DNA of 61,052 nt from Thermosynechococcaceae cyanobacterium MS004 (GTDB lineage Bacteria > Cyanobacteriota > Cyanobacteriia > Thermosynechococcales > Thermosynechococcaceae): positions 1 through 61,052 of the forward strand of contig JAKRSB010000004.1 in the NCBI GenBank assembly GCA_022402525.1, written 5' to 3'. Positions 3,054-31,898 of this stretch are shown here, piece by piece. A program made the position numbers and the translations under genes. How positions within the stretch are numbered: the stretch's first letter is position 1; every line of letters begins with the position of its first letter. Below the pieces are notes generated by a model that did no database searches, was not told where the DNA came from, and saw only the letters and a list, made by a program, of their open reading frames with translations.

Positions 3054-4508
3054 TTAAATCGCAGGCCGCCAAGTCCCATGAAAACTCACGGCGATCGCTC
3101 CTGGGAGCGCAAGGCGACAGACGGGTTCATCTCCAAGGCGATGACTCTCATACACCCAAACCTCACTGGCATGATGTTGGGCGTCATAGATGATGGTCAG
3201 CACCCAGCCCTGATGGGGCTGATGGGGGTTTGGGGCAAAGATCGGTTCGCTGGGATAGCGTTGTGTCCCCAGATTGGCGAGGGTTAAGGTGTCCTGAGTA
3301 TGGTCAAAACAGGCGATCGCATCAAACAGATCCGTGGTGCGGTTGTGGTCTGAATGCGTACTGAGAAAGGTATACCGGCCTGGGCTGCCCGCTGCTGCCG
3401 GAGACACCACCGGAAACTCACAGATGCGGTCATGCAGGCGGTGCGCTTCTGCCACTTCAGCCGTCTGGGGGTTGACCCGTAAGCGCCAGAGCGTTCCGGG
3501 GGCATCGGTTTTAGGCTGACCGGAAGGCACTTCTTTCAAAAATTGATTGGTTTGGAAATCTGCATAGCGCACCACATCCACCACAATCTGGCCGTCGGCG
3601 TCTACAAAACTATTCCCAAAGTGCCACTGAAACCAGGGGTCGACTTCACGTTGCTGAAGCAGCTCTAGCGTTTCTCGATTAATCACCATAACCTGAGTGC
3701 CCCGCTTAGGCTGCCAGCGGAGCGCTTCGCTGTAGCCCTGCCAACCCAGCAGCAGCGGCAATACCTCCAGATAGACGGGCGAAATGAAAAAGACAAGGTA
3801 AGGCCCCGCCAGCACAAAGTCGTGGACTAAGGGGGTGCCCTGGAGCGGGATTTTATTCTGACGCAGCAGCTTACCTCGGCGATCGCAGTGATACAGGTTC
3901 AGCAAAGACTGTCGCCCTGGCTGAATGCCAAAGTTATAGATTTCACCCGTCTGCGGATCAACCTTCGGATGTGCGGAAAAGGTTTGACTTGCCTCCAATC
4001 CCTGAAGATCGTCCATCCCGATGGTCTCTAGGGTCTGTAGATCCAGCGCGTGGGGCAATCCACCTTCCCAGAGCGCCAGCAGCCGATCTTCTAGGGCAAG
4101 GACGGAAGTATTGGCCGCATTTTTAGGGGACAGGGAAGACTCTCCCTGCGATCGCCGCCAGAAGGGTGTAGCCCGTCGCCCAAATCCGCTAAACCGAAAG
4201 GCTCCGGCCTTTTCTTCTGCAAGATATCCAGCGGTCTGGACGCGCCGATAGGCCCCTTGGGCAGCCTCCCCATCAAAATGGACGCCCAGCACCGCACCGT
4301 CCCCATCAAACCAGTGGGTAATCCGCTCTCCCTGGCGCTCAAAAAGCGATGGGCCATTGCGGTAGAGACTTCCCCGCAGACCTGCGGGCACCTGACCTGA
4401 AATGACGCGCAGGGGCGTTAACGGGAATTCTTGAATGGGCTGCGTAAAGGCGCTAGACCAGTGGGCTGCTGCCGATTTTGGGCTAGATTTCTGCTGCGAT
4501 ACAGTCAT
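3054..4508 (-). CDS. Carotenoid oxygenase (RPE65/apocarotenoid 15,15'-oxygenase family)
   Basis: A 484-residue protein, close to the length of the cyanobacterial apocarotenoid oxygenase. The four iron-binding histidines are visible at about H180 (TFSAHPKVD), H229 (LVHDF), H296 (QWHFGNS) and H477 (SFHGTW), with the family motifs LRGSLYRNGPS and HWFDGDG near the N-terminus. These non-haem iron enzymes cleave a carotenoid or apocarotenoid double bond with O2, making retinal-type aldehydes; the exact substrate here is inferred. The start is firm: AAGGAGGG lies 3 nt before ATG. It is divergent from a PadR regulator across a perfect 20-bp palindrome, so repression by that PadR protein is likely. 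Confidence 0.93.
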   Translation of the reverse strand: MTVSQQKSSPKSAAAHWSSAFTQPIQEFPLTPLRVISGQVPAGLRGSLYRNGPSLFERQGERITHWFDGDGAVLGVHFDGEAAQGAYRRVQTAGYLAEEKAGAFRFSGFGRRATPFWRRSQGESSLSPKNAANTSVLALEDRLLALWEGGLPHALDLQTLETIGMDDLQGLEASQTFSAHPKVDPQTGEIYNFGIQPGRQSLLNLYHCDRRGKLLRQNKIPLQGTPLVHDFVLAGPYLVFFISPVYLEVLPLLLGWQGYSEALRWQPKRGTQVMVINRETLELLQQREVDPWFQWHFGNSFVDADGQIVVDVVRYADFQTNQFLKEVPSGQPKTDAPGTLWRLRVNPQTAEVAEAHRLHDRICEFPVVSPAAAGSPGRYTFLSTHSDHNRTTDLFDAIACFDHTQDTLTLANLGTQRYPSEPIFAPNPHQPHQGWVLTIIYDAQHHASEVWVYESHRLGDEPVCRLALPGAIAVSFHGTWRPAI

Positions 4509-4610: not shown

Positions 4611-4658
4611 ATATTCAACAAAGTGCATATACTAATTAATATGCACTTTGTTGAATAT
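4611..4658. promoter_or_regulatory. Perfect 20-bp inverted repeat, probable PadR operator
   Basis: The left arm ATATTCAACAAAGTGCATAT (4611-4630) and its exact reverse complement (4639-4658) flank the 8-bp spacer ACTAATTA. It sits between two divergent genes, 150 nt before padR and 103 nt before the carotenoid oxygenase. PadR proteins bind dyad sites holding TGCAT/ATGCA-type half-sites near their own promoters. A bidirectional terminator is less likely because both genes point away from it. Confidence 0.65.
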
Positions 4659-4807: not shown

Positions 4808-5404
4808 ATGAGTTTGGCTTACGCCATTTTGGCCGCGCTCTCCTGTAAAGAAAGCAGCGGTTACGACCTAGCCAAGCGATTTGATGAGTCGGTGGGCTAC
4901 TTTTGGTCAGCAACCCACCAGCAGATCTATCGGGAACTGCGGCAGCTAGAGGATAAATCATGGATTGAAAGCCACACCATTGAGCAGTCCGATCGTCCCA
5001 ATAAAAAAATGTTTTGCCTGACGCCCCTCGGTCAGCAAGAAATGATGGACTGGATTGCACAGCCCAGCAAATCGAGTAAGCACAAGGAGGAAATTCTGGT
5101 TAAGCTCTTTGCAGGGGGGCTTGTTGAGCCTCAGCTCCTCCAGGAAGAGCTGTTAAGAACGCGCGCTAGCCATCAGCAGCAGCTCCAGACCTATCAGGCG
5201 ATCGCAGATCAGTATTTCCCAGATCCAGAGCCGCTCCCGTTCGCGATAAAGTGCCAGTACCTCACCCTACGCCAAGGTATTCGCCACGAAACCGCCTGGG
5301 TTGAGTGGTGTGATGAAGCCCTCAGCGCGCTAAATTTACGTGGTTTCCATGATGCCCTTGAAGCCCCTCACCCCAAACCCCTCTCCCAAAGGCGAGGGGC
5401 TTAA
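4808..5404 (+). CDS. PadR family transcriptional regulator
   Basis: A 198-residue protein. The N-terminal winged helix is clear: LAYAILAALSCKESSGYDLAKR, then a long helix FWSATHQQIYRELRQLEDKSW and the wing with KMFCLTPLGQQE. The C-terminal half (about 95-180) is the helical PadR dimerisation region, ending in ETAWVEWCDEAL. AAGGA precedes the ATG. The last ~20 residues (ending PHPKPLSQRRGA) and the stop are encoded by an inserted copy of the dispersed MITE-like repeat, so the native C-terminus has been replaced. It probably senses a small ligand and represses the divergent carotenoid oxygenase and itself. It is paralogous to the PadR gene at 11806. Confidence 0.9.
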   Translation: MSLAYAILAALSCKESSGYDLAKRFDESVGYFWSATHQQIYRELRQLEDKSWIESHTIEQSDRPNKKMFCLTPLGQQEMMDWIAQPSKSSKHKEEILVKLFAGGLVEPQLLQEELLRTRASHQQQLQTYQAIADQYFPDPEPLPFAIKCQYLTLRQGIRHETAWVEWCDEALSALNLRGFHDALEAPHPKPLSQRRGA

Positions 5405-5659: not shown

Positions 5660-7051
5660 TCAGCTCCCCTGCCGAAGCCGCACCATAAAAAAGCCGTCCA
5701 TGTTTTGCTGATGGGGCCAGATTTTAATCCAGCCCTGGTCAGACTGCAAAGATGATAGGAACTCCTCTGGCGCTGGGCGATCAATGTGCCAGTGAGAGTT
5801 TTCTGCTAAAAAGCGCTCGACCACAGCCTCATTTTCTTGAGGGTGTAGCGTGCAGGTAGCATAGACCAAAATTCCATCGGGCTTGACATGCTGAGCAGCG
5901 GCGCTCAGCAGTTGGCTTTGTAGGGCGCAGAGTTCCTGTACCGTTTCTGGGGTTTGTCGCCAGCGTGCATCGGCATGGCGGTGTAGGGTACCCAGTCCAG
6001 AGCAAGGAGCATCCAGCAGAACCGCATCAGCCAAGGGAATCTCAGCAGAGAGCGATCGCCCATCTCCCTGCCAGATATTGACTGCCGCGCTGATCTGGAG
6101 CCGATCGAGGTTTTGCTGGAGACGCTTGAGGCGGGACGCAGTGCGATCGCAGGCCCAAACTTTTCCCTGCCCCTGCATCAGCTCAACCAGATGGGCAGTC
6201 TTGCCACCCGGTGCCGCGCAAAGGTCAATCACCACCATACCGGACTGGGGATTCAGCAAATGGCCCACGAGCTGAGCGCTGGCCTCCTGCACCATCCACC
6301 ATCCTTCTTGGTACCCCGGTAATTTGGGAATAGCCCCAGGATTTCCCACCATTCGCAGGGCTTGGGGAGAGGGGAGCGCTACCGTCTCAATCCCTTGAGT
6401 AGCAAAGGCAGCCTGTACCGTTTCGCGGTCTGTTTGCAGCGGGTTAATACGCAGGTCTAGGGTAGGGGGTTGATTGAGGGTGATGCAAAGCTGTTCGGCA
6501 GCTTCTAGTCCGAGGCTGTCTGTCCAGGTTTTGACAATCCAGTCCGGGTAGCTGTGCAGAATACCGAGGCGCTCGATTGGATTGGCGCTGTCAGCCGTCA
6601 GCAGGGCAAGCGGATCGCCCTTTTCTTGAAGCCGCAGGTACTGCCGCAGTAGCCCGTTGACAAACCCAGAAAGTCCGCTTAGTCGATTTTGCTTTAGCAG
6701 CTCTACGGTTGTATTCACCGCTGCCGAGGGGGGGATTTGCGCTAAATACCGAAGCTGATATAGCCCCAAGTGCAGAATGGTTCTGACATCTGGGGCTTGG
6801 CCGCTAGCGGGCTTTTTGGCGAGTTGGGTAATGAGGGCATCCAGCGATCGCAGGCGTCGCACACACCCATAGACTAGCTCCGTGAGGAGCCGCCGATCTG
6901 CATCGGTGAGCGTATGCTTTGCCAGACTGCGCTCAAGCGCCACATCAGCAAATGCACCTTTATGCACCGCTTTCAGCGCTTGAAAAGCCAATTGGCGACC
7001 AGATGGTTGCGCAGATTTTTGAGCAGATTGTTGCACAAGCACAGAATTCAT
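5660..7051 (-). CDS. rsmB: 16S rRNA (cytosine-967-C5)-methyltransferase RsmB/Sun
   Basis: A 463-residue protein of the usual RsmB length. The N-terminal 150 residues form the NusB-like RNA-binding domain (ALERSLAKHTLTDADRRLLTELVYG). The methyltransferase domain has the SAM loop DLCAAPGGKT (about residue 277), motif IV DAPCSGLG (about 349) and motif VI YATCTL (about 395); these contain the two cysteines needed for C5 methylation. It should methylate C967 of 16S rRNA in the cytoplasm. No strong Shine-Dalgarno is seen before the ATG. It is followed on the same strand by no close gene; clpB lies upstream, 108 nt away. Confidence 0.93.
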   Translation of the reverse strand: MNSVLVQQSAQKSAQPSGRQLAFQALKAVHKGAFADVALERSLAKHTLTDADRRLLTELVYGCVRRLRSLDALITQLAKKPASGQAPDVRTILHLGLYQLRYLAQIPPSAAVNTTVELLKQNRLSGLSGFVNGLLRQYLRLQEKGDPLALLTADSANPIERLGILHSYPDWIVKTWTDSLGLEAAEQLCITLNQPPTLDLRINPLQTDRETVQAAFATQGIETVALPSPQALRMVGNPGAIPKLPGYQEGWWMVQEASAQLVGHLLNPQSGMVVIDLCAAPGGKTAHLVELMQGQGKVWACDRTASRLKRLQQNLDRLQISAAVNIWQGDGRSLSAEIPLADAVLLDAPCSGLGTLHRHADARWRQTPETVQELCALQSQLLSAAAQHVKPDGILVYATCTLHPQENEAVVERFLAENSHWHIDRPAPEEFLSSLQSDQGWIKIWPHQQNMDGFFMVRLRQGS

Positions 7052-7159
7052 AGCCAGGGCATTCCACGGATTCTCAATCCACGGATCGGCGTGGAATAGG
7101 TTCAGATCAACTCGACCCTCACGCCGGATGGCCGTAGAGGTTCGCCCAACGGCTCAAGC

Positions 7160-9778
7160 TTAACTGCTCAGCACCTCGGCGGAGAGGCGCTTAAAGTCAA
7201 GGCGCTCATTGAGCACATCGACAAAGACCGTATCGCCTTCGCTGAAGGTACCGCTTAAGATGCCTTTAGCTAGCTTGGTTTCTAGCTCACGCTGAATGGT
7301 GCGCTTAAGGGGACGTGCCCCATATACGGGGTCGTAGCCAACTTCGGCCAGCAGGTCGAGGGCAGACTCTGAGAGCTTGAGGGTGATTTTACGATCCTGG
7401 AGGCGTTTTTCAAGGCGCTTGACCTGAAGCTTCACAATTTGGCGCAGTTCGTCTTTGCGGAGGCTATGGAAGATGATGTGCTCATCAATCCGGTTTAGGA
7501 ATTCGGGTCGGAAGTTGCCCCGCAGCGCTTCTAGTACACGGGTCTGCATTTCAACATAGCGGGTATCGTCTCCGGCTAAATCTAAGATGTACTGCGACCC
7601 AATGTTGCTAGTCATGATAATGACCGTATTTTTGAAGTCTACGGTACGCCCTTGAGCGTCGGTCACGCGCCCATCATCCAAGATTTGCAGCATGATGTTG
7701 AATACATCTGGGTGCGCTTTTTCAATTTCGTCAAAAAGCACGACCGCATAGGGGCGTCGGCGCACGGCTTCCGTGAGCTGTCCGCCTTCGTCGTAGCCCA
7801 CGTACCCCGGAGGCGCACCCACCAGACGCGAGACGTTATGTTTCTCCATGTACTCGGACATATCGATCCGCACGATCGCATCTTCGGTATCAAACATAAA
7901 GGCGGCTAAGGCTTTGGCCAGCTCGGTTTTGCCAACCCCCGTGGGGCCGAGGAAAATAAAGCTGGCGATCGGACGGTTGGGGTCGGCAAGTCCCGCCCGC
8001 GATCGCTGGATAGCGTCGGCCACGGCGGTCACGGCTTCATCCTGGCCAATGACCCGCTGATGCAGTTCGCCTTCGAGGTGGAGGAGCTTTTCCATTTCGG
8101 ACTGCACGAGCTTGCTCACCGGAATGCCTGTCCATTTGCCAATAATTTCAGCAATATCCGCTTCGGTGACTTCCTCGCGCAGCATGGAGTGTCCCGTGGT
8201 TTGGGCTTGGGTGAGGCTGGCTTCCGCGTCTTCTAGCTTATGGTGCAGGCTAACGAGGGTGCCGTACTTGAGGGCAGCGGCCTTTTCGTGATCGTATTCT
8301 CGCTCGGCCTGTTGAAGCTCGATATTGGTGCGGTCAATCTCTTCTTTAACGGTCTGGATTTGGTCAATGACCTGTTTTTCAGACTGCCATTGGGCATTCA
8401 GGTTCGACTGCTCTTCTTTAAGGTCGCCCAGCTCTTTTTCTAGACGGGCCAGCCGATCTTGAGACGCGCGATCGCTTTCTTTGCGCAGGGACAAGCGCTC
8501 CATCTCAATCTGAAGGATCTTGCGATCAATTTCGTCAAGCTCTTCGGGCTTGGAGGTAATCTCCATCTTGAGCTTGGCGGCGGATTCATCGACCAAGTCG
8601 ATGGCTTTGTCTGGCAAAAAGCGATCACTAATGTAGCGCGTGGAGAGGGTGGCCGCTGCAACAAGGGCGCTGTCGGAGATCTTCACCCCATGATGCACTT
8701 CGTAGCGCTCCTTAAGGCCGCGCAAAATAGAGATGGTGTCTTCAATACTGGGCTGGTCAATAAAGACCTGCTGAAATCGTCGCTCTAGGGCAGCATCTTT
8801 TTCGATGTACTTGCGGTACTCATCTAGCGTTGTAGCGCCAATACAGCGCAGCTCACCCCGCGCCAGCATGGGCTTCAGTAAGTTGCCTGCATCCATTGCG
8901 CCCTGGGTTGCCCCAGCGCCCACGACGGTATGAATTTCGTCGATAAATAAAATAATTTGGCCTTGGGAGTCCGTGACTTCCTTCAGGACGGCCTTGAGTC
9001 GTTCCTCAAATTCGCCCCGGTATTTTGCCCCCGCAATCAGTGCGCCCATATCCAAGGAAATCAACTGGCGATCGCGCAGAGATTCGGGCACATCTCCGGC
9101 AATAATGCGCTGGGCCAGACCCTCGGCGATCGCGGTTTTACCGACCCCTGGCTCCCCAATCAGCACCGGATTATTTTTGGTGCGGCGGGACAAAATTTGG
9201 ATCGTGCGGCGAATTTCATCATCTCGACCAATCACGGGGTCAAGCTTGCCAGACTTTGCTAGCTCTGTTAAATCGCGGCCATACTTTTCGAGAGATTCGT
9301 ACTTCCCTTCTGGGTTTTGATCCGTCACTTTTTGGTTTCCCCGAATTTGTTCAATAATGGCGCGCAGCTTTGCTTCGTCTAGCCCTACTTCTTTGAGCAG
9401 CGTTTGTCCCAGTCGCTCATCTTTAGCGTAGGCCAAAATCAAGTGCTCAATGGAGATAAAGTCGTCTTCAAAGGTTTTACGATGGCTCTCCGCACGGTCA
9501 AGGAGCGTATCTAAACTACGACCCAAGTACACCGAGTCGCTGGGCGTGCTGAGTTTTGCCTGCTTCTGGATAAAGTCAGCCGTGCGATCGCGCAACTGCT
9601 GCACACTCACCTCAGCCTTGTTAAAAATACTGGTGGCTAAGCCCTCTTGCTCTAGCAGCGCCTGCAAAAGATGTTCGCTTTCAAGCTGCTGCTGCTTCGC
9701 TTGCTTTGCAATATCTGGGGTGCGGACAATGGCTTCCCAGGCTTTTTCTGTAAATTGGTTGGGGTTGGTTGGTTGCAT
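7160..9778 (-). CDS. clpB: ClpB chaperone, protein disaggregase
   Basis: The start chosen is [14 protein letters not shown], the conserved cyanobacterial ClpB N-terminus, giving 872 residues; an in-frame ATG ten codons upstream is less likely. Order: Clp_N domain (1-145), AAA-1 with GEPGVGKTA (about 206) and [12 protein letters not shown], the coiled-coil M-domain (about 405-525, rich in Glu/Lys/Gln), AAA-2 with GPTGVGKTE (about 613) and [11 protein letters not shown], then the ClpB D2-small domain. As a hexamer it threads aggregated proteins through its pore, working with DnaK. It lacks the ClpP-binding loop expected of ClpC. Usually heat induced; no CIRCE-like element was recognised in the upstream spacer. 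Confidence 0.96.
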
Positions 9779-11805: not shown

Positions 11806-12366
11806 TCACTCAAATGACTCATCATTCATAGTCCGTTCGATTGCCTCAAGTGATTCATTACACCATGCAACCCAGTCTTCTTGATAGCGAATTGCCCGAC
11901 GAATAACGAGGTGCATATAGAGATCTTTGAGTTCGAGTGAATCCAAATTTTTGGCAAAATGTTCGTCCATTTTTTGCAAGTGTTGCGCCATTGACCTATG
12001 CAGTTTTTGCCGACGCTCGATTTCAAGAACAACGACCTGACTTGGCACGAGATGCCCTGCTAATCCTATAACGCCAAGATCTTCGCGGATAGCAGTGGGT
12101 TCTGTGGGCTGGGTTAGCCAACTGATGAGGTCTTCCTGCCCCTCGCTCGTGATGGAATAGATTTTTTTATCTAAGCGTCCAGGCTGGGGAATGACCTCGT
12201 AGGTGACGCGACCTTGTTGTTCTAGCTTGGCAAGCTCTGCATACACCTGCTGTTGACTCGCCTTCCAAAAACATCCCCCAAATCCTTCCGCAAATTCTTT
12301 CGCGACTTCATAGCCGCTTAGGGGTTGTCGTGAGAGAAAAGCCAGGATCGTATGCTTGAGAGCCAT
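11806..12366 (-). CDS. PadR family transcriptional regulator
   Basis: A 186-residue protein. Winged helix: MALKHTILAFLSRQPLSGYEVAKEF, recognition helix region FWKASQQQVYAELAKLEQQGR and wing DKKIYSITSEGQEDL. The C-terminal helical half ends with YQEDWVAWCNESL, matching the DEAL-type ending of the PadR protein at 4808, so the two are paralogues. It is divergent from the SDR/4Fe-4S pair, with a near-perfect dyad between them (12434-12461). It probably represses that pair in the absence of a small-molecule signal; the ligand is unknown. Confidence 0.9.
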   Translation of the reverse strand: MALKHTILAFLSRQPLSGYEVAKEFAEGFGGCFWKASQQQVYAELAKLEQQGRVTYEVIPQPGRLDKKIYSITSEGQEDLISWLTQPTEPTAIREDLGVIGLAGHLVPSQVVVLEIERRQKLHRSMAQHLQKMDEHFAKNLDSLELKDLYMHLVIRRAIRYQEDWVAWCNESLEAIERTMNDESFE

Positions 12367-12433
12367 AAATCAATTCTACGGAAATCAGGACTCAAAATCG
12401 CTTGACGGATTTCATGACTTGAAAATATCATGC

Positions 12434-12461
12434 TTTTGTACTCAAAAACTTGAATACAAAA
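12434..12461. promoter_or_regulatory. Inverted repeat between padR and SDR, probable operator
   Basis: Arms TTTTGTACTCAA (12434-12445) and TTGAATACAAAA (12450-12461) are complementary except for one position, with spacer AAAC. It lies 13 nt before the SDR start codon and 67 nt before the padR start. That position would allow a bound PadR to block both promoters. Confidence 0.6.
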
Positions 12462-12474
12462 AACAGAGATTGAC

Positions 12475-13269
12475 ATGAAAAACTTCCAAAGACGACTAAA
12501 AGCCCGATATGGTCTTTGGGCTGTCGTCACAGGTGCATCTTCTGGCATTGGTCGTGAAATGGCACTGAGGTTAGCTGAGTCGGGGTTGAATCTTGTTTTG
12601 GTGGGGCGGAGTCAAGCGACTTTAGAGCAGATGGCGAATGACTTGAGCGATCGCTATGAGATTGAGGTGCGCTCAGTCATCCAGGATTTGTCGGTGGAGA
12701 GGAGCTTGGAAACCCTTGCCGCACAGACCCAGAATTTGGAAGTTGGGTTACTGGTGGCGGCGGCAGGCTTTGGCACATCAGGCGCGTTTCTCAATTGCCG
12801 ACTGGAACAAGAGGTGGAGATGCTGCATGTTAACTGTCGATCGCTCATGGGGCTGACTTGGCACTTTGCACAGCGGTTTGCCAAGCAGCGACGGGGCGGC
12901 ATCGTTTTGATGAGTTCGATAGTGGGGTTTCAGGGAATGCCATTTGCGGCGCATTATGCAGCGACCAAAGCCTATGTGCAAACCTTCGCTGAAGCGCTCA
13001 ATGTAGAGCTTGCACCCTTGGGCGTTGATGTAATCGCCTCTGCACCAGGGCCGACGAACAGTGGGTTTGCTGATCGCGCCGGGATGAAGATGGGCAAGGC
13101 TCTCAGCGCAGCGGTGGTCGCTCAAGGAACTTTACAAGCGTTGGGCCGAAAGTCCACCGTGTTACCAGGATTCCTATCAAAACTGCTGACCTACTCCCTG
13201 CTCCCGTTACCCCGATGGGCGCGGGTGCGGATTATGGGTGGTGTGATGAAAAGTATGACGAAGCATTAA
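12475..13269 (+). CDS. Short-chain dehydrogenase/reductase (classical SDR)
   Basis: 264 residues, the classical SDR length. The Rossmann cofactor motif is TGASSGIG (19-26). Catalytic residues are Ser147 or Ser148 (LMSSIVG), Tyr161 and Lys165 (YAATK). The NAG motif is changed to AAAG (95-98). VGRSQ after the second beta strand suggests NADP(H). It reduces a carbonyl or oxidises an alcohol; the substrate is unknown. The C-terminus is hydrophobic and basic (LLTYSLLPLPRWARVRI), as in membrane-associated SDRs acting on lipids. The next gene follows 13 nt after the stop, so the two are almost certainly co-transcribed under the divergent PadR. Confidence 0.9.
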   Translation: MKNFQRRLKARYGLWAVVTGASSGIGREMALRLAESGLNLVLVGRSQATLEQMANDLSDRYEIEVRSVIQDLSVERSLETLAAQTQNLEVGLLVAAAGFGTSGAFLNCRLEQEVEMLHVNCRSLMGLTWHFAQRFAKQRRGGIVLMSSIVGFQGMPFAAHYAATKAYVQTFAEALNVELAPLGVDVIASAPGPTNSGFADRAGMKMGKALSAAVVAQGTLQALGRKSTVLPGFLSKLLTYSLLPLPRWARVRIMGGVMKSMTKH

Positions 13270-13282
13270 ACCCTTTATTGGC

Positions 13283-14632
13283 GTGGCTGTCATGAAAAAT
13301 TTTGAAGATCATCCTACAGTCCAATGGTGGCGCAATCGCTCAGTTGTCCAATCATCTGTTGTTGTGACTCCTCTAAATTCAGATTCGCTGCGCGAGCTTT
13401 GTTTGCAAGCAGGTGCAGATGATGTAGGTTTTGTCGAAATCGATCGACCGGAACTCGCCGATCAACAGGCTGATATCTTGGCTGCCTTCCCCAAGACCAA
13501 AACCTTGATTAGCTTTGTTTGCCGGATGAACCAGGAGAATGTACGAGCGCCGCTACGATCAATTGCGAACACCGAATTTCATTCGAGTGGGGCGGATATT
13601 GATCGGGTCGGTCGCACGATCGTCGAAACCTTGACCCAAATTGGCATCCGTGCCCTAAATCCGTCGGTAGCGTTTCCGCAAGAAATGGATCGGTTTCCAG
13701 GTAAGGTTTGGATTGTTTCGTATAAGCCTGTTGCAGTCGCTGCTGGCTTGGGACATATGGGATTGCATCGGAATGTCATTCATCCTAAGTTTGGCAATTT
13801 TATCTTGTTGGGTGCGGTGTTGATGGAATCGGAAGTTACGGATTACAATTATCCGATTGACTATAACCCTTGCATCGATTGCAAACTCTGTGTTGCGGCT
13901 TGTCCCGTTGGCGCGATCGCCTCAGATGGTCACTTTAATTTTTCAGCCTGTTATACCCATAATTACCGTGAATTCATGGGTGGATTTAGCGAGTGGGCGG
14001 AGACGATTGCCGAAAGTAAGAGTGCCAAAGACTATCGCGAAAAATTTAGCGCGGCGGAATCTGCCTCCATGTGGCAGAGTTTATCTTTTAAAGCTAATTA
14101 CAAGGCCGCTTACTGCATGGCGGCTTGTCCGGCTGGAGAAGATGTCATCGCGCCATTTTTAAGCGATCGCAAAGAATTTGTGCGAGACGTTGTGAAGCCA
14201 TTGCAGGAAAAAACTGAAACCATTTATGTCATCCCCGGATCGGATGCAGAAACCTATGTCGCTAGACGCTTTCCCCATAAAACCGTCAAACTTGTCAGCA
14301 GTGGAATTCGTCCGGTATCGATAGAAGGGTTTCTCTTCGGTCTACCATTGCTCTTTCAGCGCAATCAGTCGGAAGGATTGCGTGCAGTTTATCACTTCAC
14401 CTTTACTGGCGCTGAACGTGCTCAAGCGACCATAACAATTCAGAACAAAACGCTTCAAGTTCAATCAGGACACAACGGAAAAGCGGATCTTGCTGTGACA
14501 GCAGATAGCAAAACTTGGATCAGGTTTCTTTGTAAGGAAGAAAATATTATTTGGGCGTTGATACGTCGAAAAATTAAGGTCAAGGGGGCTATTAAGTTAC
14601 TTCAGGCCTTTGGAAAATGTTTTCCCTCATAA
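13283..14632 (+). CDS. Two-cluster 4Fe-4S protein (QueG/reductive-dehalogenase-like) with C-terminal SCP2 domain
   Basis: 449 residues from a GTG start (an ATG lies three codons in). Residues about 30-190 resemble the QueG/RdhA cobalamin-binding N-domain (VAAGLGHMGLHRNVIHP). Ferredoxin-type cysteines follow: CIDCKLCVAACPVG at about 196, and CMAACPAG at about 277, enough for two 4Fe-4S clusters. Residues about 365-449 look like an SCP2 sterol-carrier domain (VYHFTFTGAERAQATITI, ending GAIKLLQAFGK). It may reduce a hydrophobic substrate held by the SCP2 domain, together with the SDR upstream. It is unlikely to be the housekeeping epoxyqueuosine reductase because of the fusion and the operon. 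Confidence 0.78.
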   Translation: MAVMKNFEDHPTVQWWRNRSVVQSSVVVTPLNSDSLRELCLQAGADDVGFVEIDRPELADQQADILAAFPKTKTLISFVCRMNQENVRAPLRSIANTEFHSSGADIDRVGRTIVETLTQIGIRALNPSVAFPQEMDRFPGKVWIVSYKPVAVAAGLGHMGLHRNVIHPKFGNFILLGAVLMESEVTDYNYPIDYNPCIDCKLCVAACPVGAIASDGHFNFSACYTHNYREFMGGFSEWAETIAESKSAKDYREKFSAAESASMWQSLSFKANYKAAYCMAACPAGEDVIAPFLSDRKEFVRDVVKPLQEKTETIYVIPGSDAETYVARRFPHKTVKLVSSGIRPVSIEGFLFGLPLLFQRNQSEGLRAVYHFTFTGAERAQATITIQNKTLQVQSGHNGKADLAVTADSKTWIRFLCKEENIIWALIRRKIKVKGAIKLLQAFGKCFPS

Positions 14633-25085: not shown

Positions 25086-25679
25086 TTATTGTTGCTGGAT
25101 GCCCCGGCGAAACTCGCGCATGGCTTCCAGTCTGGATGTCTCACCCATGAGCACACACCGACTGAGTAACCCAAAATCCAAGGTTGCCAGCTCGGGAATC
25201 TGGCTTTGATCAATGCGTTCATAACCAGATTCCCGCAGGCGGTACAGGCTAAACGCCCGATCTTGCCAAAACCAGACTTCTGGCACGCCCAATGCCTGAT
25301 AGCGCTGCAACTTGTTGGGACCGCCACTGGTAAATACTACTTCGATGGATAGATCTGGAATGGGCTTGGATGCCCCAATGCAATAAGATTCATCGGCCTG
25401 AACCGATGCCATACCCTCACGCTCTTGAGTCATGGAACCCGTTGGCTCAAACTCAACACCGACTTCTTCAAAAAAGATGCCAAGCAGTAAGGCAATGATG
25501 CCTTTAAACACTTCATGGTCACGCCCCGGCATAAGAATCTCAATCGTACCGTTGTAATAAAACAAACGAGAACCGGGAAAGTCCTCGAAGCCAGCTTGAA
25601 TCAGCTTGAACTGCTCCCAAGTGCGTTCTGCTAAAACCAGGCGTTGATCGGTTGTGAGGGGTGAGGTTGCAAGGGGCAT
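25086..25679 (-). CDS. Uma2 family endonuclease-like protein (DUF820)
   Basis: 197 residues from ATG 25679 (AGG lies 8 nt before); an upstream TTG at 25697 is less likely. Motifs: RLVLAERTWEQFKLIQAGFE, GSRLFYYNGTIEILMPG, PIPDLSIEVVFTSGG and VPEVWFWQDRAFSLYRL. It belongs to a different Uma2 subgroup from the tandem pair at 22902. The nuclease-fold acids (PDL and IEVV) are kept. The gene is flanked by two relics of the same HsdS-like tail, suggesting insertion into an old restriction-modification locus. Confidence 0.87.
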   Translation of the reverse strand: MPLATSPLTTDQRLVLAERTWEQFKLIQAGFEDFPGSRLFYYNGTIEILMPGRDHEVFKGIIALLLGIFFEEVGVEFEPTGSMTQEREGMASVQADESYCIGASKPIPDLSIEVVFTSGGPNKLQRYQALGVPEVWFWQDRAFSLYRLRESGYERIDQSQIPELATLDFGLLSRCVLMGETSRLEAMREFRRGIQQQ

Positions 25680-25829
25680 GGTTTTGTACCTGAGCAACAG
25701 GATTCTAGCGATTTAGGGGAGCAGTTTTTCGTTGATTTAGTCTATTGTAAGGTGTTTTTCAAAGCGATCGCAGCAGGGATTCGGCATGTGGCGATCGCGG
25801 CCAGGAAACAGGTTTGAAAATGCTGCGGC

Positions 25830-27277: not shown

Positions 27278-28363
27278 TCAGGTATTCAGATTTTTTAAGA
27301 GAGTATAAAACCACGATTTATAGGTACGATAAATTTTATTGTCTTTACCTCTTACCATGCCTAGAAAATTTATTTTCCCTCGAATTACTTCTAGGAATGG
27401 AGAAACTTCTTCTTCGGAAATACCCAATTCTTTACACTGCTTCTCTCTAAACTTTTTCTCAGCCAAATCAAATCCATATTTTTGCCAAATATTAAGCATA
27501 GAACTAATTTGCCTGACGTATTTACGCTTCACATTAGGAAACTGATTCACAGTAAGGCCAGTGACTTCTTGATGTTGACTTTTGTGCTGCAATCTAATTT
27601 TGTTTGTATTAATTTCAAAACCATTATCTTGGATAATAGAAATTAATCTTTTGCCCAATAATATTTTTCCCTCTTCTTCTTGAGTGTCTGTATATGCAAT
27701 CTCTTTGGGGAAATTAGATAAAGTTGTTGAAAATGTAATGTCATCTGCATATCGAGTATAGTTACATTTACATTCTTTTGCTAACAACCTTAATTGACTA
27801 TCAATTTTTGCACAAATCATATTAGAAATAACAGGAGATGTTGGAGCACCTTGAGGGAGAGATCCAGAATGACAACAAATTTTTGCCAGTATAGTTGCTA
27901 CTTCACTTGAGCGGTTATACGGAGGTGCGATAAAAATTCCTCTAACTCTGCCAAAATGAATACTTTTAAAAAAATCTTTCAAGTCAATATTTAGAACGAA
28001 TCTTTTTCTCAGGTGCTGCTGTGCATTTGTAACAATGCTTCGACAAGGCAAAAAACCATGAACTGTAGCCTTAGGTTCATAGACGCTATATAAAACTTGA
28101 CTAAGTTTGCGTTGTATTATCTTCAGTGCTGTTGAAGGAGCTGATATCTTCCTAGGATTGCCAGACTTTTTAGGAATCAAGAATTCTATATATCTTTGAT
28201 TCTCAGGAGTCTTATAAAGGTGGTAGATAAGTCGATCAAATGAAACTTCTAAAAGAGTAGCAACATCTCTTGTAGTCTTAAGCGAAAAAAAATCTCTCTT
28301 TAAAACATCACAATCTTTATAGAGAAGGAGGGATGAATTCTCTTTGAGTTTAGTCTTAGACAT
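27278..28363 (-). CDS. Retron-type reverse transcriptase
   Basis: 361 residues, the normal retron RT length. Motifs in order: NAQQH at 113-117 (retron NAxxH), VLNIDLKDFF (RT motif A with its Asp), LPQGAPTSPVISN (169-181), YADD (205-208) and VTGLTVN at 267-273, the VTG triplet that marks retron RTs. The thumb ends with GKINFLGMVRGKD. No maturase, endonuclease or primase domain is present, so it is not a group II intron protein. It should prime from a guanosine 2'-OH in its own ncRNA and make msDNA. The ncRNA candidate lies directly upstream (28423-28588). AT-rich like the two genes before it. Confidence 0.92.
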   Translation of the reverse strand: MSKTKLKENSSLLLYKDCDVLKRDFFSLKTTRDVATLLEVSFDRLIYHLYKTPENQRYIEFLIPKKSGNPRKISAPSTALKIIQRKLSQVLYSVYEPKATVHGFLPCRSIVTNAQQHLRKRFVLNIDLKDFFKSIHFGRVRGIFIAPPYNRSSEVATILAKICCHSGSLPQGAPTSPVISNMICAKIDSQLRLLAKECKCNYTRYADDITFSTTLSNFPKEIAYTDTQEEEGKILLGKRLISIIQDNGFEINTNKIRLQHKSQHQEVTGLTVNQFPNVKRKYVRQISSMLNIWQKYGFDLAEKKFREKQCKELGISEEEVSPFLEVIRGKINFLGMVRGKDNKIYRTYKSWFYTLLKNLNT

Positions 28364-28422
28364 TCTTGAAATTTAGAGCAAGCTTGTAAATAATATAGTT
28401 GTGTATTACTTAAAAAAAGAAA

Positions 28423-28588
28423 TGAGAACATCTATAGATATATCCACGTCTTCTGCCCATACAATAGCAAAACTATAGCTACTACATACAGTAATAACCC
28501 TGGATCAGCTAGCGGGCATAATGCTGACATTGAGATACACCATCGCTAATAGTCAATGGAAATCGATATTTTATCTATAGATGTCTCA
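28423..28588 (-). ncRNA. Candidate retron msr-msd RNA
   Basis: In the RNA sense (minus strand) the segment starts with TGAGACATCTATAGATA (plus 28572-28588) and ends with TATCTATAGATGTTCTCA (28423-28440). These are complementary over 17 bp with one bulge, like a1/a2 arms. Between them lie TTAGCGATG near 28541-28549 (the local context of the branching G in Ec86-type retrons), a short UCAGC/GCUGA stem, and a longer hairpin: CUG-UAU-GUAGUAGC against GCUAUUGU-AUG-CAG with several G-U pairs, suited to msd. The segment ends 59 nt before the RT start codon. The branching G is unusually far (about 25 nt) from the arm, so exact ends are tentative. Confidence 0.62.
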
Positions 28589-28619
28589 GCTTTTGACAAT
28601 ATAACCCGATTTTGAAAAA

Positions 28620-30500
28620 TTAGCTATCGCAAGAGTATATTTTTTTATGTACCCATTTTTTTTCATAACTTGATACCCGATATTTCGGTTGAGATCTTAG
28701 TGATTTTTTGTATAGAGCTATACTCTCATGAAATTTTCCTTGCTTTTCTAAAATGAAGCCATATTCTCTATAAATCACATAGTTATCAGGTGAGGGAGGC
28801 TCAAGTAAAGCTGCTTTTTCATAGCTTTCTAAAGCTTCATTATATTGCTCTACTTCGACAAGAGCTTTTCCCTTCTTCCACCAAACATTGTAATCCTTTT
28901 CCTCTAACTCAAGAGCTTTATCATATGCATCAACTGCTTCAATGTGCCTGCCGAACTTTTTTAAGGTATTTCCTTGCTCAGTTCTGATTTTATAGTCATT
29001 TGGAGAAAGTAAAGATGCTCTTTCATAAGATTGAATTGATTCTTCAATGCGACCTAATTCTTTAAGAATAACAGCTTTCTTCTTCCATAATTCTACATTG
29101 CCTGAATCACTTTCTATTTCTTTCTCACAAAGTTTTAGCTTTTCTTTCAGATCTCTATGTTTTAGTTCATCTTCTCTGCTCAACAATCTAGTTAGTAAAT
29201 TGATATCTTGATAACCTTTTCTCTCGACAAGATTGCAGCTTAATTTATAAGCATCTCTAATTGTTCGGTCACAGCCTAATTGATAGTAAAACTCTTCAAT
29301 AAAAATACTGGATTTGCTGTCTTCTAGCTCATCGCTTACTCCAATCAAAAAGTCAACATATTGAACGATTTCTTTAGCTTGGATTTCTGAATAACATCTG
29401 TTCATAACAATGCACTTTATGCTTCTATTATGAAGCTGAAGCAACTCAGCTATTAGTTTTGATTTTCTTGGTTCTTGAAGTGAATTTTTTTCAGGATTTT
29501 CTTCTATTGCCAACTTTTCAATTCCACTGTCACGGCCAAAAATATTGATAATATAAGGCTCAATAGCTGATAACTCTTGAGAAAGTTCGGATGCGCTTAT
29601 ATCTGATCTTTCTTCAAGATAAAATTGCTTGCCATTTTTAGCTCTTCTTAATGCATCTCTAATTTCTTTATGATTTTGTTTCCAGATTGCATGTTCTATT
29701 TTTTTAGGATTGGATGGCAGTATAAGGATTGTCCTTGAAACCTGTTTTACTTGTGCCACATCACTGCCATGAAAATGAGTTCCTCCATTAAAAATGGTGT
29801 TATCAACGCCGAGCTGAGTTTGAGAAACTGTATTGCCTAAATTATTTTGACTGTTTAGTAGATCTCTAGATAAATCGATAACTAAATTATTCCAGCGTTG
29901 ATCTTGCTGATGAAACGAACGCTGTTGCTCGACTAGCTCAGGGAACTGAGTCAGAATTATCGTAGAGGGTACAGCACCCCCACCCAAATCACTAGAACGT
30001 TCACGTGTGAATTTTATAATTCCACAGACCTTACCTGTTCGTTGGTTTAGCAAAGGTGATCCACTCATTCCCGGTCTTACTTGACCCGCAGCAAACTTAA
30101 TTAATGCTGGCTCATCTCCTGTTAGACCTTCACAAGTAAAGGTTACAGGGCAACCATTTGGAAAGTCTTTGTCAGGATAACCAAACATGTAAAGCTCATC
30201 GCGAGATTGGACTGCTTTATCTTCTAAATAAGCACAAGGCGTGTTTCTATCAACTGGAGATGTTACTTTCAACAAAGCCAAATCATATGGCTCAGGTAGT
30301 GATTTCACAACAATTGCTGTTGCCCAGTTTTGAGTTGATTGCAATTTCACTCGAATTGTTTGTTGGTCTGTTTGTTCTATTACATGAGTACAAGTGAGAA
30401 TCCACTCAGGAGTCACAAAAAAACCTGTCCCCCAGCCTGTTTCCTCCGGACGAGAAAGCTTCACTGTACATTGATTCAGAAAACTCTCTAGCTCACTCAT
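28620..30500 (-). CDS. Trypsin-like protease fused to a CHAT-like domain and TPR repeats
   Basis: 626 residues. Residues 1-190 are a trypsin-like serine protease with His39 (LTCTHV), Asp73 (YDLALLKV) and Ser146 (GMSGSPL). Residues about 256-430 match the CHAT-like caspase domain of cyanobacterial proteins (ILILPSNPKKIEHAIW, RDALRRAKNGKQF, VMNRCYSEIQAKEIVQYVDF): Cys369 is kept, but the usual SGHG is FGRD, so the His is Arg323. Residues about 460-615 are at least four TPR repeats. It starts 3 nt after the Trypco1 stop and ends 256 nt before the RT gene. It is probably cytoplasmic. Likely role: effector of a conflict system, with CHAT as a sensing or scaffold part. Protein targets unknown. Confidence 0.85.
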   Translation of the reverse strand: MSELESFLNQCTVKLSRPEETGWGTGFFVTPEWILTCTHVIEQTDQQTIRVKLQSTQNWATAIVVKSLPEPYDLALLKVTSPVDRNTPCAYLEDKAVQSRDELYMFGYPDKDFPNGCPVTFTCEGLTGDEPALIKFAAGQVRPGMSGSPLLNQRTGKVCGIIKFTRERSSDLGGGAVPSTIILTQFPELVEQQRSFHQQDQRWNNLVIDLSRDLLNSQNNLGNTVSQTQLGVDNTIFNGGTHFHGSDVAQVKQVSRTILILPSNPKKIEHAIWKQNHKEIRDALRRAKNGKQFYLEERSDISASELSQELSAIEPYIINIFGRDSGIEKLAIEENPEKNSLQEPRKSKLIAELLQLHNRSIKCIVMNRCYSEIQAKEIVQYVDFLIGVSDELEDSKSSIFIEEFYYQLGCDRTIRDAYKLSCNLVERKGYQDINLLTRLLSREDELKHRDLKEKLKLCEKEIESDSGNVELWKKKAVILKELGRIEESIQSYERASLLSPNDYKIRTEQGNTLKKFGRHIEAVDAYDKALELEEKDYNVWWKKGKALVEVEQYNEALESYEKAALLEPPSPDNYVIYREYGFILEKQGKFHESIALYKKSLRSQPKYRVSSYEKKWVHKKIYSCDS

Positions 30501-31163: not shown

Positions 31164-31796
31164 CTACCGAATCACAACCTGACTAATCCCTTTGAGAATT
31201 TGCAGAACCTCATACAGCCGATTGGCACGAGACAGCGGGCTATAGGTATCTGAAAAATCATACTCAGGATTTTCACCCTGCTTAACCTTCAGAAAAATAA
31301 AGCTATTTCCATTGGTCACCATGCCAAACAAAGGCTTGTCTTGGATTGGGCTCGCCATCATATAGGCCAGTAGTTGAGGAACCCCTACCTCAACGTCAAA
31401 CTCCGTTTCTTTCGACTCAATCACCGCTCGCCAAAATTGGTCTTGAATCACCAAAAAATCAATGCGCCCTCGAAGCATTTCGTCTTCGTCAACGGTTTCA
31501 ATCTCCACAGAGACTTCAGCGCGTAATCGAAAAGGCGGGTCGTAAAAGCCAGCCATTTCGAGCAATCGCGATACCACAATGGCATTCACCGCCCCCTCCG
31601 TCACCTGCCCCGCCTCACGGTGATACCGAAACCGCTGGCGGATCCGATCCAACGTTTCCCGTTCTAATTCATCTAAGGCGGGTAAATGGGTGTACCATTC
31701 CGTGAAAAACTGACTGTCTGGTGATCGCCGCAGACCAAACCGTCGATGAACATCGTTTAAGGTTTTAACAACCTGAGTGACCGCCGTTTGTACCAT
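31164..31796 (-). CDS. PD-(D/E)XK nuclease-fold protein (restriction endonuclease subunit R-like)
   Basis: 210 residues from the ATG that follows GGAGCGAGG; the in-frame ATG 13 codons upstream has no such site. The core GRIDFLVIQDQFWRAVIESKE, followed by EVGVPQLLAYMM, carries D...ExK residues of the PD-(D/E)XK fold. C-terminal strands read LFGMVTNGNSFIFLKV. Cyanobacteria hold many such single-domain proteins labelled restriction subunit R, but no methylase or helicase is near. The role is unknown; it ends in its own terminator and is not part of the retron operon. Confidence 0.8.
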   Translation of the reverse strand: MVQTAVTQVVKTLNDVHRRFGLRRSPDSQFFTEWYTHLPALDELERETLDRIRQRFRYHREAGQVTEGAVNAIVVSRLLEMAGFYDPPFRLRAEVSVEIETVDEDEMLRGRIDFLVIQDQFWRAVIESKETEFDVEVGVPQLLAYMMASPIQDKPLFGMVTNGNSFIFLKVKQGENPEYDFSDTYSPLSRANRLYEVLQILKGISQVVIR

Positions 31797-31898
31797 CAGC
31801 CCTCGCTCCGCTCGACTATCTCTATGGTATGGCACTCAAGCAATCCACTGCTGGAGCACACCTAGGATAGGCGATCGCCTTTAATGATGCCGACCTGC

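Follow-up and report, generated by a model that had tools for sequence, protein, structure and literature searches.

In the abstract of PMC7585037, class III cobalamin enzymes are listed as two groups only, the reductive dehalogenases (RdhA) and QueG. According to PMC4646009, QueG has C-terminal HEAT repeats in its domain layout and a DYH motif in its active site, with a corrin-proximal cluster held by Cys194, 210, 236 and 239 and a distant cluster held by Cys184, 187, 190 and 243. Here we analyzed a 61,052-nucleotide stretch of DNA (the window) from Thermosynechococcaceae cyanobacterium MS004 (contig JAKRSB010000004.1), in which an iron-sulfur (Fe-S) protein with a core like that of these enzymes is fused to an SCP2 lipid-carrier domain. 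This Fe-S/SCP2 protein and its relatives are a third, separate branch of the class III superfamily and members of neither QueG nor RdhA. We propose that the protein is an inducible, soluble reductase of lipophilic electrophiles, fed by ferredoxin or FNR, and that its locus is a repressor-controlled detoxification operon, to which we assign a probability of about 0.5.

A third branch of the class III fold

The Fe-S/SCP2 gene lies at 13292..14632 on the + strand. The ATG at 13292, where homologues begin, is the likelier start and a GTG at 13283 is the alternative; residue numbers given here count the GTG as residue 1 and are three higher than those of the structural model. The AlphaFold model is confident (mean pLDDT 88.7, pTM 0.82). 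For model residues 19-310, the best structural match was the reductive dehalogenase 8q4h (Z 17.9, root-mean-square deviation (rmsd) 3.5 over 235), and PceA, NpRdhA and QueG also matched, with Z scores of 17.4, 16.6 and 16.1. MMACHC (CblC), which has a related nitroreductase-type cobalamin module but is not known to carry Fe-S clusters or SCP2, matched at Z 9.5. In hhalign, a profile of 59 family members matched a profile of 23 cyanobacterial QueG proteins with 99.2% probability (E 1e-19, 185 columns). The matching core spans 13346..14221 (+ strand), and in it a nitroreductase-type module is followed by a ferredoxin module. These structural and profile matches together predict a class III cobalamin-enzyme fold, with SCP2 in the place where QueG has HEAT repeats.

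Membership in either described group is not borne out. The protein scored 49.4 bits with the QueG model TIGR00276, against a curated cut-off of 200, and 35.8 bits with the RdhA model TIGR02486 (cut-off 160.35). A true QueG is encoded elsewhere in the same genome and reaches 329 bits with TIGR00276. In a tree of 62 cores, 26 from this family (of 94 rows, L054 not among them), 23 from QueG and 13 from RdhA formed three separate clades, each supported at 100/98 or better; the RdhA rows all come from one phylum, and one further RdhA (L188), which has no first motif, was dropped. The C-terminal HEAT domain and the QueG_DUF1730 segment of QueG are likewise missing: the C-terminus is SCP2, and PF08331, present in the genome's own QueG, was not listed for this protein at E values up to 1. 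The DYH motif has no counterpart either, with hhalign pairing it with the variable residues 105-106-107, and a nearby invariant EFH does not align to it. The column of the catalytic Asp of QueG (Asp130 of S. thermophilus QueG) falls on M135, adjoining the invariant E134, in a part where the alignment is loose.

Compared with QueG, then, the protein shares the N-terminal nitroreductase-type module and the ferredoxin module for two [4Fe-4S] clusters, but has SCP2 instead of the HEAT domain, one fewer corrin-proximal Cys and a clade of its own. Reductive dehalogenases, above all soluble NpRdhA and the self-sufficient RdhA-PDOR fusions, resemble it in structure (Z 16-18 for the best RdhA matches) and, for some family members, in a C-terminal FAD/NAD/2Fe-2S reductase. 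It differs from them in falling far below the RdhA cut-off, in lacking a duplicated cobalamin domain, in the added SCP2 and in having seven rather than eight cluster cysteines. No twin-Arg start was seen in the protein sequence.

The SCP2 domain (14363..14620, + strand) was recognized by Pfam and by fold. PF02036 matched residues 361-446 at E 5.6e-9 and 36.7 bits, over its cut-off of 21.3. Model residues 342-446 superimposed on the SCP2 domain of the alkylsulfatase Pisa1 (Z 16.1, rmsd 1.8 over 106) and on human SCP-2L (Z 14.2-14.4, rmsd 2.2-2.3 over 105), with Z scores of 10-16 to SCP2 domains overall. The initial annotation had assigned the C-terminal 85 residues to SCP2, and the assignment thus stands by both profile and fold. 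While the fold is that of human SCP-2L and of the alkylsulfatases Pisa1 and SdsA1, the domain in this family is fused to a redox core and has an invariant Cys near its end (C446, in a CFP tail).

An altered corrin-proximal site

The protein had been described as carrying two clusters. Its first Fe-S motif, C197-x2-C200-x2-C203-x3-C207 (13871..13903, + strand), is intact, with C203 present in 80 of 81 aligned members (L054 lacks it) and the other three cysteines in all 81. The second motif, however, is degenerate (A275-x2-C278-x3-C282-P, 14105..14128, + strand) and one canonical Cys short, leaving seven cysteines instead of the eight for two [4Fe-4S] clusters. This replacement of a corrin-proximal Cys had been overlooked. 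Between the two motifs lie C223 and H226 (13949..13960, + strand), both found in 81/81. By motif order, C207, C223 and C278 correspond to QueG Cys194, 210 and 239, and the Cys236 position falls on residue 275, where 78 of the 81 members have Ala and the other 3 have Ser. The canonical C-x2-C-x3-C is kept in 23/23 QueG and 13/14 RdhA proteins (one of these rows lacks the first motif), compared with only 1 of 94 family rows.

The exception, L141, diverges most from the rest of the family and represents a sister subtype; of 297 genomes from its order, 5 (that of L141 included) encode such a protein. All five sister-subtype members keep the proximal-cluster Cys and lack the His residues of the main clade. 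Conversely, Cys275 is absent from 93/93 main-clade rows, in which H100 and H162 (93/93, versus 0/5 in the sister subtype) and H147 (91/93 versus 0/5) are found. Positions 273, 274 and 276, next to the lost Cys, have changed as well. Both subtypes share invariant C223, H226, E134, K148 and C446. In these alignments, Cys loss and His gain appear as a coupled change, the cause of which is not indicated since there is one evolutionary contrast only. We considered H226 as a plain replacement ligand for the lost Cys and rejected it because it is also present in the sister subtype, where the Cys is retained; it is H100, H147 and H162 that track the loss.

It is possible, though we advance this tentatively, that the main clade has rebuilt its corrin-proximal site by losing the Cys and gaining His100, His147 and His162. 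The enzyme would then reduce lipophilic electrophiles delivered by SCP2 with a cluster that has a His ligand or an open site, with a His-on cobamide, or without any cobamide. If true, such a cofactor arrangement would be new, and the family that has it is large and found across many bacterial phyla.

Electron supply

All neighborhood counts below describe the nearest relatives, the best 80 of at least 376. In three of these 80 loci (L063, L066 and L087), the protein continues past SCP2 into FAD-binding, NAD-binding and 2Fe-2S domains, identified by Pfam for L063 (FAD_binding_6, NAD_binding_1 and Fer2) and read from the sequence for L066 and L087. Self-sufficient reductive dehalogenases have the same reductase domain plan (PMC10463259). 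At the mycobacterial loci L081, L101 and L102, a separate reductase gene follows within 25 nucleotides or overlaps, with Fer4 and Pyr_redox_2 domains determined on the L102 protein. Because of the fusions, the Fe-S/SCP2 protein is very probably an electron-fed reductase, and the fusions together with the adjacent gene support an NAD(P)H or ferredoxin reductase as its likely electron input.

Gene organization and regulation

In the window, the Fe-S/SCP2 gene follows a classical SDR oxidoreductase gene (12475..13269, + strand). Classical SDRs are recognized by the motifs TGxxxGxG and YxxxK, and this protein carries both (TGASSGIG and YAATK) along with an adh_short match of 131.6 bits. The gap between the two genes is 13 nucleotides by the GTG start and 22 by the ATG at 13292, and they therefore probably form an operon. 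Divergent from it is a PadR-family repressor gene (11806..12366, − strand), whose product has the PF03551 winged helix (47.8 bits, cut-off 27) and a C-terminal Vir_act_alpha_C domain (51 bits), both over cut-off. The three genes are real open reading frames, with Pfam backing for every domain named.

Upstream of the operon, a sigma-70-like promoter that matches the consensus, TTGACG-18-TATCAT, was found at 12402..12431 (+ strand), with 0.3 such matches expected in shuffled sequence. Two nucleotides downstream of its −10 box lies a dyad with 12-nucleotide arms (12434-12445 and 12450-12461, together 12434..12461) that are 92% complementary. A search of the window with a 24-base form of the dyad gave a single match, where chance would give 0.03, and the dyad is the sole site with at most two mismatches in the 4.9-Mb genome, in which a control pattern gave none. 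Two cyanobacterial records, L025 and L016 (L016 and L023 are one and the same record region), have the same PadR-SDR-reductase gene order. In both, the PadR orthologue is in the same position (83% identity in L016), the TTGAC of the promoter is kept and the dyad is retained almost letter for letter, with the rest of the spacer only loosely alike. The near-perfect dyad reported earlier between PadR and SDR is therefore real, unique in the genome and conserved. Its conservation and its position just past the promoter lead us to read it as operator-like, a site over the transcription start at which a repressor may bind. SDR relatives occupy the same operon position in L016 (78% identity), L019 (60%) and L025 (68%). 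In L025, the third PadR-linked locus, a stop codon lies inside the reductase frame (6001-7344), which could be an assembly error or decay.

As had been claimed, the PadR beside the operon is a second paralogue in the window. The other (4808-5404, + strand) is 34% identical, and five PadR matches in the genome score above cut-off. A single signal common to both PadR genes was considered and rejected, given this low identity and the absence of the dyad at the other gene, which has its own perfect 20-nucleotide inverted repeat (4611-4630 and 4639-4658, loop 8). This repeat lies between the other PadR gene and an RPE65-type carotenoid oxygenase gene that faces it (3054-4508, − strand).

In the suggested search for further 4Fe-4S-SCP2 fusions and their neighbors, neither PadR nor SDR proved constant. 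A MarR, HxlR, TetR or PadR repressor was found within 2.5 kb in 70 of the 80 loci; the nearest was MarR in 51, HxlR in 9, TetR in 8 and PadR in 2, leaving 10 with none. The constant element is thus the Fe-S/SCP2 protein beside a repressor of one of these four types. In a position control on 45 loci, repressors were concentrated in the first 2 kb upstream, with 27 of 33 MarR matches in the first kilobase. On the family tree (79 labelled of 94 rows; L025, with its in-frame stop, and the short L074 were left out), the regulator type changed at least 10 times while the enzyme stayed. The window and L023 sit inside a mostly MarR-controlled cyanobacterial group, so the PadR looks like a local replacement of MarR-type control. 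One Cys is invariant in the MarR partners (48/48), and some redox MarR proteins sense through such a Cys. By this analogy, the MarR Cys points to reactive compounds rather than sterols.

The substrate had been suggested to be sterol-like, which our findings do not support. The SCP2 fold binds a wide range of lipids, the mycobacterial-type subfamily lacks it and no sterol gene is a constant neighbor; thiol-type MarR regulators fit reactive electrophiles at least as well. A halogenated substrate, also suggested earlier, is conceivable. Separately, a small membrane methyltransferase-like protein of the PEMT/ICMT family is encoded beside the Fe-S/SCP2 gene in 8 of the 80 loci (L026, L027, L037, L039, L043, L060, L061 and L097; Pfam was run on the L027 protein).

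Distribution

The family has at least 376 relatives in many phyla, with a patchy distribution. At an E value of 1e-20, it was found in 7 of 386 cyanobacterial genomes (the phylum of the window), in 7 of 398 proteobacterial genomes (the phylum of Methylocaldum) and in 6 of 296 actinobacterial genomes (the phylum of Streptomyces), where several of the hits are incomplete or end ahead of SCP2. The gene also occurs on Nostoc and Priestia plasmids, in 3 of 72,556 plasmid records at a coverage of at least 80%, annotated merely as "SCP2 sterol-binding domain-containing protein". Being patchy, sometimes plasmid-borne and prone to swap regulators, the family looks like an accessory trait. It was unnamed in the profile libraries searched, and the fusion was undescribed in the literature searched, which yielded papers on reductive dehalogenases, on QueG and on unrelated topics and lacked most subscription papers. 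The chemistry known for the fold would be broadened by a third, apparently soluble class III group that has a lipid carrier, natural fusions to a reductase and an altered cluster. Such a group would also offer tractable hosts among cyanobacteria, Streptomyces and Priestia, and the existing annotation as an SCP2 sterol-binding protein can now be turned into a testable enzyme hypothesis.

Proposed function and alternatives

Our findings support the earlier view of a PadR-controlled operon encoding an uncharacterized redox enzyme with a QueG/RdhA-like core fused to SCP2. We infer the cofactor, substrate, inducer and pathway direction as follows. PadR would occupy the dyad over the transcription start until a hydrophobic or reactive compound releases it, and the operon would then yield the SDR and a soluble, electron-fed reductase. 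Electrons would pass from ferredoxin or a ferredoxin reductase through the Fe-S clusters to the nitroreductase-type module, whose active site, judging from the fold, probably holds a cobamide. SCP2, replacing the HEAT domain of QueG, may deliver or shield the lipophilic substrate. Most likely, the enzyme would reductively open or remove an electrophilic group (an enone, quinone, epoxide or halide); the SDR may act on a carbonyl before or after this step.

Several observations weigh against this proposal. Use of cobalamin is uncertain, because DYH is not kept, the catalytic Asp column falls on M135 and the corrin-proximal cluster is one ligand short. Four proteins of the mycobacterial-type subfamily, from genomes in the Streptomyces phylum (L129, L131, L132 and L133; ~340 amino acids, 57-59% identical), end before SCP2; the core can thus exist without the lipid carrier, which is not essential to the core reaction. 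With an SDR within 2.5 kb in only 11 of the 80 loci, the SDR may be incidental. The 10 loci with no recognized repressor nearby (two of which have short flanks) also count against it, as does the coverage of the position control, which comprises the 45 of 80 loci with long flanks on both sides.

The loss of the Cys and the gain of His100, His147 and His162 could also mean that the main clade no longer uses cobalamin. Its rebuilt active site might then hold, among other options, a flavin in the pocket of the nitroreductase-type module or a [4Fe-4S] cluster with a His ligand or an open site. The reciprocal pattern of Cys275 and of H100 and H162 between the main clade (93/93) and the sister subtype (5/5) fits this idea, as does retention of C-x2-C-x3-C in QueG and nearly all RdhA. 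Yet the contrast is a single one, and the fold and the AGLG..G loop are retained; we consider abandonment of cobalamin unlikely. The enzyme might also be a soluble reductive dehalogenase that acts on lipophilic halogenated compounds by RdhA chemistry, with a cobamide and with NAD(P)H as the electron source. This would explain why 8q4h, PceA and NpRdhA are the best structural neighbors and why the FNR fusions have the layout of self-sufficient RdhA (PMC10463259). QueG, however, is nearly as high by structure and higher by sequence, and the low TIGR02486 score, the separate clade and the lost second Cys motif render a true dehalogenase improbable.

Detoxification itself may be the wrong frame if the enzyme instead performs a lipid-modifying or biosynthetic step, such as reduction of an apocarotenoid, hopanoid, quinone or polyketide. 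The SCP2 fusion would suit such a role, and so would the SDR, phospholipid-methyltransferase-like and ester-cyclase neighbors at some loci and the carotenoid oxygenase found with the other PadR 6 kb away. The carotenoid link is nevertheless seen in this window only and there is no constant biosynthetic partner, while the patchy distribution and drug-type repressors are in keeping with an inducible accessory trait; we consider a biosynthetic role improbable.

Other features of the window

Elsewhere in the window, a reverse transcriptase gene (27278-28363, − strand) matches PADLOC RT-Protease_XI over its reverse transcriptase part (460 bits). Next to it, a trypsin-TPR gene (28620-30500, − strand) matches the protease part of the same system (49 bits). 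Together (27278-30500), they are a two-gene version of this single-gene PADLOC defence system. A strong match to the PADLOC candidate defence family PDC-S17 (221 bits) lies at 25086-25697 and a weak PD-DExK match at 31164-31835, suggestive of a possible defence island.

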